DNA from: Halorubrum sp. 48-1-W
Lineage (GTDB): Archaea; Halobacteriota; Halobacteria; Halobacteriales; Haloferacaceae
Reading direction: 5' to 3'
NCBI RefSeq assembly: GCF_003287355.1
Contig: NZ_QMIM01000014.1
Coordinates: 1 to 54,617, forward strand
DNA length: 54,617 nucleotides
This document shows, piece after piece, positions 48,485 through 53,458 of this stretch (position 1 is the stretch's first letter; every line of letters starts with the position of its first letter). Below the pieces are notes generated by a model. The model made no database searches, was not told the origin of the DNA, and worked only from the letters and a program-made list of their open reading frames with translations. The position numbers and the translations under genes were made by a program.

Positions 48485-49459
48485 ATGAAAGCTGTGGTAC
48501 TTGCCGGCGGGTACGCGACGAGGCTCTGGCCGATCACCAAGGACCGACCGAAGATGTTCCTCCCCGTCGGCGAACGGACCGTCATCGACGAGATATTCGC
48601 CGACCTCGAGGCCGACGACCGGGTGGACGAGGTGTTCGTCTCGACCAACGAGCGCTTCGCCGACACCTTCGACGAGTACCTGGCGGAGAGCGAGTTCGAG
48701 AAGCCGACGCTGTCGATCGAGGAGACGGTCGAGGAGGACGAGAAGTTCGGCGTCGTCGGCGCGCTGGCCCAGCTCGTCGACCGCGAGGGCGTCGAAGACG
48801 ACCTGATGGTCGTCGCTGGCGACAACCTGATCAGCTTCGATCTGGCCGAGTTCGGCGACTTCTTCGACGAGAAGGGGACGCCGGTGCTCGCAGCCTACGA
48901 CGTCGGATCGCTGGAGCGCGCGAAGTCGTACGGGCTCGTCGAGCTCGACGGCGATCAGGTCGTCGACTTCCAGGAGAAGCCGGAGAACCCGAAGAGCACG
49001 CTCGTCTCCATCGCGTGTTACGCCTTCCCCGCCGAGACGCTACCCGACCTCGCGACGTACCTCGAGGACGGGAAGAACCCCGACGAGCCCGGCTGGTTCC
49101 TCCAGTGGCTCCAGTCGCGCGAGCCGGTCCACGCGTTCACCTTCGACGGCGCGTGGTTCGACATCGGCACCGCCGACAGCTACCTCGACACGGTCGAGTA
49201 CGCGCTCGACGGCGGGAGCCTCGTCGCCGACGGCGCGACGGTCGAGGACTCCGAGATCGGCGACGTGGTCCACGTGATGGACGGCGCCGAAGTCGCCGAC
49301 AGCTCGCTCGAGCGCGCCGTCGTCTTCCCCGAGGCGACGATCACGGACAGCGACGTCCAGAACACCGTCGTCGACGAACACGCCGTCCTCGAGGAGATCG
49401 ACCTCACCGGCTCGCTGATCGGGGCGTACACCTCGATCACGAGCGGCGAGGACTTCTGA
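48485..49459 (+). CDS. Sugar-1-phosphate nucleotidyltransferase with left-handed helix tail
   Basis: The product has 324 residues. The Rossmann-like domain begins MKAVVLAGGYATRLWPITKDRPKMFLP, with the GGxxTRL nucleotide motif and Lys of the substrate site; EKPE and FDGAWFDIGTADSY are later signatures. The last 70 residues have hexapeptide-type repeats (ATVEDSEIGDVVHVMDGAEVADSSLERAVVF in outline). It makes an NDP-sugar, probably for glycan or lipid biosynthesis, with UTP or dTTP; the exact sugar is not determined. The ATG has AAGTATCAC about 28 nt upstream. No glycosyltransferase is adjacent. Confidence 0.9.
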   Translation: MKAVVLAGGYATRLWPITKDRPKMFLPVGERTVIDEIFADLEADDRVDEVFVSTNERFADTFDEYLAESEFEKPTLSIEETVEEDEKFGVVGALAQLVDREGVEDDLMVVAGDNLISFDLAEFGDFFDEKGTPVLAAYDVGSLERAKSYGLVELDGDQVVDFQEKPENPKSTLVSIACYAFPAETLPDLATYLEDGKNPDEPGWFLQWLQSREPVHAFTFDGAWFDIGTADSYLDTVEYALDGGSLVADGATVEDSEIGDVVHVMDGAEVADSSLERAVVFPEATITDSDVQNTVVDEHAVLEEIDLTGSLIGAYTSITSGEDF

Positions 49460-49472
49460 GCCGGCGTCCGCG

Positions 49473-49850
49473 TCAGTCCTCACCTTCGTCGCGCACCGCG
49501 TCGACGACGCGCCGAACCGTTTCGTACTCCTCGCTCGACTGGGCGATGAAGCGTACGTCTCGCAGGTTCTCCGGGTCGGACGCGCGGATCGTCTCCGCGA
49601 TGATCCGCGCGCCCGCCTCGAGGTCGAACCCCGCGACGCCACAGCCGAGCGCGGGGATCACGAGCGACTCACAGCCCCGCTCGTCGGCCGCCGTGAGCGC
49701 GTTCCGGGTCGCGTCGCGGACGCTCTCGGCCGTCGCACGGCCGTCCCCGTAGTGGGGCATCGCAACGGCGTGGACCACTATTTCGGCATCCAGACCGAAC
49801 GCGTCGGCCGACGCTTCGGCGATGTCGCCCTGGACCACGGTGAACTCCAT
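49473..49850 (-). CDS. Macrodomain protein missing the ADP-ribose-binding loop
   Basis: The product has 125 residues, while macrodomain proteins usually have 160-190. It begins MEFTVVQGDIAEASADAF, then jumps to GLDAEIVVHAVAMPHYG and VIPALGCGVAGFD. In the family, the segment between the first and second of these holds NAAN and the Gly-rich loop that bind ADP-ribose; about 45 residues are lacking, in frame. Start ATG 49850 has a TCTTAACC box about 28 nt upstream, so expression seems intact. It could be an inactive remnant or a protein with another role. The reading frame is otherwise clean. Confidence 0.85.
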   Translation of the reverse strand: MEFTVVQGDIAEASADAFGLDAEIVVHAVAMPHYGDGRATAESVRDATRNALTAADERGCESLVIPALGCGVAGFDLEAGARIIAETIRASDPENLRDVRFIAQSSEEYETVRRVVDAVRDEGED

Positions 49851-49873: not shown

Positions 49874-50134
49874 TTAAGAGCGTTCCGTGGGGCGGACCGG
49901 GTCCGGCTCGTCGGATCGGGACCCTTCCGCGGCCCGGTCGACCTGCCCGTGTGCGTGATGGTAACAGTCGAGCGCGGGGTCGCCGGACGCGGTCGTCGCC
50001 GGGTGGAAACACACCCGTCGGTACCGTTCGTTGTCGTGGAGGGCGACGACGAACCCGCCCGCGTGCCGCGACACCGACTCGTAGGGTTCACCGCAGGCGG
50101 GACAGACGTCGGGCGGGTCCTCCGGGACGTACAT
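49874..50134 (-). CDS. Small haloarchaeal protein with CPACGEPY zinc-binding motif
   Basis: The product has 86 residues. One CxxC pair (CPACGEPY) near the N-terminus, single Cys at RRVCFHP and DCYHHAHGQ with several His could make a zinc site. The core (GGFVVALHDNERYRRVCF) resembles a conserved haloarchaeal family of unknown function. The last 20 residues are acidic and overlap the TATA box region of the downstream macrodomain gene, which starts 24 nt later. The two may be partly co-transcribed. Confidence 0.8.
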   Translation of the reverse strand: MYVPEDPPDVCPACGEPYESVSRHAGGFVVALHDNERYRRVCFHPATTASGDPALDCYHHAHGQVDRAAEGSRSDEPDPVRPTERS

Positions 50135-51490: not shown

Positions 51491-53458
51491 TTACTCTCCC
51501 GGATCCGTCGAGGGATCGCCGTTGGAAGCCTGCGTCTCGGGACCGGCCACCTGGCCGTCGCGCTCATCGATGGTGTCGTCGCGCTCTTCGTCGCGCTCTT
51601 CGTCGCGCTCTTCGTCGCGCTCTTCGTCGCGCTCTTCGTCGTCGTCGCGTTCCTCGTCGTCGTCGCGCTCTTCGTCGTCGTCGCGCTCTTCGTCGCGTTC
51701 CTCGTCGTCGTCGATCGCGTGATCGTCCCCGAGAGGGCCCCCGCCCGACTCGAGACCGGCCGGCTCCGGATCGGCCGGCTCGAACCCGGCGCTCCCGAAC
51801 CAGTCGCGCGGGTCGTGGCCCGTCTCGCGGAGCCGTTCGCGGACGGCGTCGCGGTCGATCGTCCCCGAGACGGTTCGGGGGAGCGCGTCGGCGTACGCGA
51901 CCGTCTTGGGCAGCTTGAATCCGGCGAGCCGTTCGCGGGCGAACGCGAGCAACGAGTCGTCGAGGTGCTCCGTCCTCATGAGACCGGTATCGTCCGCGGT
52001 CGTGCGGTGGGCGTCATCTCCGCCATCGACCGCCTCCCGGGTATCGACCTCGCCGTCGGAGCCGACTTCGCCGTCGTCCCCGCCGTCCGGGTCCACGCCC
52101 GGTCGGTCCGCGTCCTCCCGGCTCGCGTCGATCCGATCCCCGACCACGACGAGAGCTGCGACGCGTTCGCCCCACTCGTCGTCCGCGAGGCCGACGACGG
52201 CGACGTCGTCGACGGCGGGGTGGCCCACCAACACGTCCGACACCTCGCCCGGCTCGACGTTCTCGCCGCCGGTGACGATCCGGTCGTCGAGCCGGTTGAA
52301 CACGTACAGGTACCCGCCCTCGTCGAGCGTCCCGACGTCGCCGGTATGGAGCCCGTACGGCCCGAACTCCGAGCCGGTCGCGTCCGGCCCGAGGTACCCC
52401 GGCGTTACCGTCGGGCCGTCGACGACGATCTCGCCAGCCTCGCCCGCCTCGACGGGGTTCCCGTCCCCGTCCACGACGACCACGTCGGTGCCGAAGATCG
52501 GTCGACCGACCGTGTCGGGACGGTCGTGGGTCGCCTTCGGCGTGGCGGTCGCGACCTGCGAGGCGGCCTCGGTCATCCCGTAGGTCGGGTACACCGGGAT
52601 CGAGTAGTCCCGACACCGATCGATCAGTTCCTCCGGGGCCGGTGCGCCCCCGAGGAGGACGACCCGCAACGTGTCAGCGAGCGTCCCGCGGCGGTCGAGC
52701 ATCCGCTCGAGCATCGTCGGCACGAGCGAGACGCCGGTCACGTCGTACCGGTCGATGTCGTCGGCGGTCCCGCCGGGGGCGAACCCCTCCCGGAGCACGA
52801 GGGTCGTGCCGTAGAGCACCGACCGGTACACCGGTGCGAGCCCGCCCATGTGGTGGAGCGCGAGCGAGACGAGCCAGCGGTCCTCCGGGTCGACGCCGAG
52901 ACGGAACGCCGAGGCGACCGCCGAGGAGTAGACGTTTCCCACGGTGAGCGGGACGGGCTTCGGCACGCCGGTCGTCCCCGACGTGAAGAGGATACAGAGC
53001 CGGTCCTCGAAGGCCCACTCGGCGGGGTCGACCGGGACGGGGTCGACGTCGTGGACGGCGGTAACCGCCGCCTCGGTCGGCTCGTCGACGGAGAGGACGG
53101 GGACGTCCTCGACGGCCGAGAGGGCGTCGGACTCGGTCGACTCCGAACAGACGACCGCGTCGAGGTCGGCGTGTTCGATTCGGTCGCTCAGCTCGCGCGG
53201 GGTGAAGCCCTCTCCCAGCGGAACGAAGGTCGCGCCCACGCGCATCGTCGCGTGGACGAGCCCGACCGTCCCCACGTACGGCGGCGTGAGCACGCCGAGC
53301 CGGTCACCCTCGGATATCCCGTGTACAGCGAGCCGGCCGGCTATCTCCGAGACGAGCCGGTCGAGGTCGGCGTACGTCCAGGCCTCCCCGTCCTCCGCGC
53401 GGATCAGTCCGACCTCGTCCGGCGAGGAGACGACACGGTGGGCGAGCCAGTCGCGCAT
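51491..53458 (-). CDS. menE: o-Succinylbenzoate-CoA ligase-like enzyme with acidic insert and repeat tail
   Basis: The product has 655 residues. The AMP-forming ligase core has P-loop ILFTSGTTGVPKPVPLT, YPTYGMTEAASQVAT, and GLHTGDVGTLDEGGYLYV; the C-terminal Lys is in ALPRTVSGTIDRD, where the usual Lys is replaced by Thr. An acidic insert of about 60 residues interrupts the C-terminal domain (ASREDADRPGVDPDGGDDG). The final 60 residues are DEERDEERDD repeats. MenE makes OSB-CoA for menaquinone synthesis; the pathway partners are absent here. Assignment as MenE rests on overall layout. The ATG at 53458 is conserved in position. Confidence 0.78.
   Translation of the reverse strand: MRDWLAHRVVSSPDEVGLIRAEDGEAWTYADLDRLVSEIAGRLAVHGISEGDRLGVLTPPYVGTVGLVHATMRVGATFVPLGEGFTPRELSDRIEHADLDAVVCSESTESDALSAVEDVPVLSVDEPTEAAVTAVHDVDPVPVDPAEWAFEDRLCILFTSGTTGVPKPVPLTVGNVYSSAVASAFRLGVDPEDRWLVSLALHHMGGLAPVYRSVLYGTTLVLREGFAPGGTADDIDRYDVTGVSLVPTMLERMLDRRGTLADTLRVVLLGGAPAPEELIDRCRDYSIPVYPTYGMTEAASQVATATPKATHDRPDTVGRPIFGTDVVVVDGDGNPVEAGEAGEIVVDGPTVTPGYLGPDATGSEFGPYGLHTGDVGTLDEGGYLYVFNRLDDRIVTGGENVEPGEVSDVLVGHPAVDDVAVVGLADDEWGERVAALVVVGDRIDASREDADRPGVDPDGGDDGEVGSDGEVDTREAVDGGDDAHRTTADDTGLMRTEHLDDSLLAFARERLAGFKLPKTVAYADALPRTVSGTIDRDAVRERLRETGHDPRDWFGSAGFEPADPEPAGLESGGGPLGDDHAIDDDEERDEERDDDEERDDDEERDDDEERDEERDEERDEERDEERDDTIDERDGQVAGPETQASNGDPSTDPGE
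51580..51720. repeat. 12-bp tandem repeats coding a DEER tail
   Basis: GTCGCGCTCTTC is repeated in tandem, then intercalated with GTCGTC, and encodes (DEER)n on the minus strand within the ligase C-terminus. The repeats are nearly perfect at 51585-51640, so copy-number variation between relatives is likely. Confidence 0.75.

Follow-up and report, generated by a model that had tools for sequence, protein, structure and literature searches.

The solved structures nearest to the protein described here are those of the macrodomain proteins TTHA0132 from Thermus thermophilus (2dx6) and Af1521 from Archaeoglobus fulgidus (1hjz, 6fx7). The surroundings of the ligand have been described for OiMacroD, where residues of the loop-1 region (N30, G35-V39, D40) lie around the distal ribose and the diphosphate sits in loop 2; the same source gives Ala in TTHA0132 and Af1521 at the position of the MacroD catalytic Asp (PMC5413906). 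Deletions with short repeats have been described between two Haloquadratum strains, where the repeats measured 10-19 bp in 16 cases and 7-9 bp in 11, and further repeat-mediated examples are given for Halobacterium (PMC3119063). A limited literature search turned up no title that dealt with macrodomains of haloarchaea or with the loss of this gene within the genus.

The gene investigated here lies in a 54,617-nt stretch of DNA from Halorubrum sp. 48-1-W, which was analysed as a whole and is referred to as the window. The source genome is a draft with a total of 3.58 Mb in 69 contigs and a completeness of 99.87%. The features of the locus are as follows:

49473-49850, minus strand: macrodomain gene with an internal deletion of 47 codons, 125 aa (from the ORF, Pfam and ortholog alignment)
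49800-49807, minus strand: CCGACGCG, the one copy of the repeat that remains at the junction (from the alignment)
49476-49799, minus strand: part retained downstream of the junction, including loop 2 (PALGCGVAGF)
49874-49879, minus strand: TCTTAA, a TATA-like sequence with a putative promoter role; the surrounding block is conserved in sister genomes
48485-49459, plus strand: convergent neighbour, sugar-nucleotide-transferase-like (named by eye from sequence), synteny anchor
49874-50134, minus strand: upstream neighbour, an 86-aa cysteine-bearing protein, synteny anchor

The best solved match of the intact ortholog was TTHA0132 (E 1.8e-23, TM 0.82/0.89), which the fold search with the intact model matched over its length, and Af1521 was a weaker sequence match (E 1.3e-10 for 6fx7). 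The 125-aa protein, on the other hand, aligns with TTHA0132 (2dx6) over 78 columns only (TM 0.56/0.45), and it differs from Af1521 in that the latter has a complete macro fold. As in the deletions reported for Haloquadratum walsbyi and Halobacterium salinarum, a short direct repeat bounds the segment in the intact relative and one copy is left, whereas the present case is seen between species and not strains, in a macrodomain gene and in another genus (PMC3119063). We consider it highly probable that the locus holds a recently inactivated and dispensable macrodomain gene, in ordinary decay by deletion between short repeats.

The shortened gene and its lost segment

The ORF, which runs from 49850 to 49473 on the minus strand, is open from ATG to TGA and encodes 125 residues. 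Its match to Pfam Macro (PF01661) scores 50.9 bits against a curated cut-off of 22 and covers profile positions 49-118 only; the ortholog in genome G012 matches positions 1-118 with 89.3 bits. Intact orthologs in the same place and with the same neighbours were found in G001, G005 (L022, Halorubrum aquaticum), G012 (L021) and G023 (L023, Halorubrum rubrum), sharing with the window copy its start, its loop 2 and 76-83% identity over the retained part. Aligned with these four and with the copy of G043, the window copy is short of one block of 141 bp after its codon 17. These 47 codons correspond to strands 2 and 3, loop 1 and two helices in the macro fold. The junction falls between window positions 49800 and 49799, inside the interval 49795-49810 that had been named beforehand for a possible assembly error, and no other gaps were found in the remainder of the gene over the 164 codons compared.

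The original prediction of a macrodomain gene with an in-frame internal deletion removing loop 1 of the ADP-ribose site was borne out by the ortholog alignment and the Pfam match, and the translation passes directly across the junction as had been described, reading VVQGDIAEASADAFGLDAEIVVHAVAMPHYG. Two details are to be amended: the missing segment, given as about 45 residues, comprises 47, and the lost motif, given as NAAN, is NAAG (NAAG in 79 of the 80 relatives among the matches listed, SAAG in L039). According to the ortholog alignment the 125-aa protein thus has neither strand 2 nor loop 1, the parts next to the distal ribose, and it retains the diphosphate-binding loop 2 (PALGCGVAGF). 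With two strands and two helices gone along with loop 1, the product is not expected to bind ADP-ribose in the normal manner, and it may not fold stably; we infer that ADP-ribose binding and function of the 125-aa protein are lost. Protein and profile searches of the source genome found no second macro gene.

Direct repeats at the deletion borders and the open reading frame

In the undeleted genes of G012 and G005 the 8-bp direct repeat CCGACGCG is present at both borders of the 141-bp segment, in those of G001 and G023 a 6-bp repeat is found at both borders, and after the deletion one copy is left in the window. With random breakpoints an equally long repeat was obtained in 0.09% and 0.13% of cases for 8 bp (G012 and G005) and in 0.74% and 0.68% for 6 bp (G001 and G023), and the border repeats thus exceed chance expectation. 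Slippage or microhomology repair between the two 8-bp copies would remove 141 bp and leave one repeat, and slippage or end-joining is the molecular route that these borders suggest. Among the genomes searched, this 141-bp deletion was seen in the source genome only, and it is probably recent.

The conserved frame is what such an event would be expected to give. When 8-mer direct repeats 30-450 bp apart were counted in five intact genes, 96 of 108 pairs were in codon phase (15/18, 28/30, 20/20, 25/30 and 8/10 per gene), in a count where pairs are not independent and overlapping repeats enter more than once. Because short direct repeats in the macro gene are mostly codon-phased, a deletion between them is expected to stay in frame in most cases, without selection.

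The promoter-like block GGAACGCTCTTRAC, whose TCTTAA spans positions -29 to -24 in the window copy, is for the most part retained in G043 too, where the gene carries a TGA at codon 85. It had been proposed that frame and promoter are intact and that a shortened protein is therefore probably still made. The frame is open and the promoter-like block is kept, but these features do not support the view that a working shortened protein is likely, since the stop-broken copy of G043 largely keeps the same block and an in-frame result is the usual outcome of deletion between codon-phased repeats. An in-frame internal deletion would thus be weak evidence of a working protein in GC-rich, codon-biased genomes, where intragenic short repeats are largely codon-phased, and a partial profile match may cause such genes to be annotated as functional macrodomain proteins.

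Fate of the macrodomain gene in related genomes

The convergent neighbour has matches in 51 of the 52 genomes of the genus, and the 86-aa upstream neighbour has no Pfam or NCBIfam match. A subclade of nine genomes, including that of the window, was delimited by a convergent neighbour at least 88% identical. In six of the nine the macro gene lies between the convergent neighbour and the 86-aa gene, with four intact copies (G001, G005, G012 and G023), a copy interrupted by an early TGA at codon 85 in G043 and the internally deleted copy of the window, whereas G007, G013 and G030 have no macro gene and the two flanking genes stand next to each other. The site was inspected in 20 genomes, and the 11 outside the subclade gave no macro match there. 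In G043 (L126, 736-1184) the epimerase-like neighbour also seems to be without residues 39-287, which would be a further internal deletion close to this site.

In the profile search of the whole family, which gave 95 Macro matches in 91 of 170 genomes, a match was found in 16 of 52 genomes of the genus vs 75 of 118 others (Fisher p 1e-4, a value that ignores kinship). Damaged copies accounted for five of the 18 matches within the genus vs two of 77 outside it (p 0.002), damage outside the genus being judged by profile coverage and by stops in the table, with inspection of G079 and G143 only. The damaged genus copies are those of the window, G043:C44 (the TGA copy), G043:C99, G044 and G051; a further copy, G040:C63, is truncated where its contig ends and seems to be out of frame, and was not counted as damaged. 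Outside the genus the two are G079, with a frame change, and the second copy of G143, with a frame change or strong divergence. The change of frame lies near codon 40 in G079 (L138) and would lie near the start in the second copy of G143 (L139).

In-frame internal deletions are also found in two other copies of the genus when aligned with the gene of G035: 171 bp in G043:C99 (L020), with an overlap of 8 bp between the aligned ends, and 261 bp in G009 (L018), with an overlap of 13 bp. G009 was found by protein search only and stands outside the 18 genus matches. This repeated loss shows that the macro gene is dispensable in the genus, where it is repeatedly being lost, and since most of the related genomes examined either lack it or carry a damaged copy, a dying gene is likelier than a new kind of protein.

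The remainder of the gene and alternative readings

Selection on the retained part was compared over six genomes and the first 164 codons. The dN/dS of the retained codons was 0.19-0.34 in the five pairs that include the window vs 0.16-0.48 in the ten pairs among relatives, and private non-synonymous and synonymous changes numbered 5:4 in the window vs 10:17 for the four intact sisters taken together (p 0.44). An alignment (A1) was made of the window and 52 of 80 loci (80 of 113 confirmed), leaving out by hand L034 (stop), L039 and L093 (irregular starts), and near-identical and further loci. Four of 68 highly conserved columns were changed in the window, compared with a mean of 2.6 in the 52 relatives, 12 of which were as high or higher. 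No second lesion was seen in the macro remainder. The absence of clear decay in the retained sequence fits a recent deletion, and it would also fit a short protein that is still constrained.

A shortened protein that is made and works, as a half-macrodomain of loop 2 and the C-terminal alpha/beta unit with another ligand or partner or with a sheet rebuilt in a dimer, is nevertheless improbable. The open frame, the kept start and promoter-like block, and a remainder in which relaxed selection was not seen would agree with it, and so would part of the structural evidence, which consists of single AlphaFold2 runs. The C-terminal half of the 125-aa protein was modelled confidently, and a Foldseek search with the model returned macrodomains, Af1521 first (79 columns, 1.2 Å, target TM 0.39). 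The model as a whole is of reasonable quality (mean pLDDT 79.6, pTM 0.78), but it has three predicted strands vs six in the intact ortholog (mean pLDDT 86.2, pTM 0.87), so that the beta-sheet is incomplete. Its residues 11-40 are poorly modelled (block pLDDT 60-63); in the intact model residues 21-50 are the weaker part (block pLDDT 61-71). Against a working half-domain also stand the occurrence of the short form in one genome only, the genus-wide loss and breakage, and an in-frame outcome that is expected without selection. Because the remainder is without further decay, a small probability, slightly lower still, is left to a stable 125-residue half-macrodomain with a new role, still driven by the old promoter.

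It is very unlikely that the deletion is an artefact of assembly or library, with a full-length gene in the genome and 141 bp lost in the draft. In its favour are the 69 contigs of the draft and a comparison set with one genome per species. The gene, however, is some 4.8 kb away from the end of the contig, and assemblers use overlaps much longer than 8 bp, so that the repeat is far below them. Furthermore, the lost 141-bp segment was not found relocated elsewhere in the assembly, in a search run without a positive control, and similar lesions are present in other genomes of the genus.

Least credible of all is the view that the loop was never there and that the short gene represents an ancestral or natural state of its subfamily, since support for this was looked for and none was found, the four closest intact orthologs in the same place have loop 1, and loop 1 is kept in 80 of 80 relatives among the matches listed (80 of 113 confirmed). 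A natural loop-less subfamily was rejected as a candidate on the same count, and no homologue naturally without the loop, which had been named as a finding that would speak against the prediction, was encountered among these 80. Of the 80 loci among the matches listed, 79 fit the pattern [NS]AAGT[SG]L.MGSGV[AV]GAL, and L055 differs by one residue. In the profile search the only matches besides the window that start after profile position 40 were G040:C63, at its contig edge, and G051, which is broken by indels. The window copy has thus lost a part that intact relatives keep, as expected of a pseudogene.

In a second alignment (A2), of 52 intact haloarchaeal macro proteins, NAAG and GVAGAL are invariant, and loop 2 is GCGVAGF or GTGAAGF. 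Because of these invariant motifs and loop 2 forms, the intact haloarchaeal family appears from the alignment to be without equivalents of Asn30, Asp40 and Tyr134 of the MacroD enzymes, the mapping of Asn30 and Tyr134 being done by eye.

A sirtuin makes O-acetyl-ADP-ribose, and the distribution of sirtuin genes was therefore compared with that of the macro genes. Sir2 (PF02146) scored over the cut-off in three of 52 genomes of the genus and 49 of 170 of the family. Outside the genus both genes were present in 39 genomes, macro only in 36, Sir2 only in seven and neither in 36 (p 1.6e-4), whereas within the genus the corresponding numbers were one, 15, two and 34 (p 1.0), in counts that ignore kinship. 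As co-occurrence is seen outside the genus and not within it, and the counts ignore kinship, sirtuin loss as a reason for the decay of the macro gene may be taken as a lead only.

Elsewhere in the window, a 655-aa ORF (51491-53458, minus strand) carries a long acidic C-terminal repeat tract of DDDEERD/EERD units, and the rest of it resembles, by eye, an acyl-CoA-ligase-type protein.
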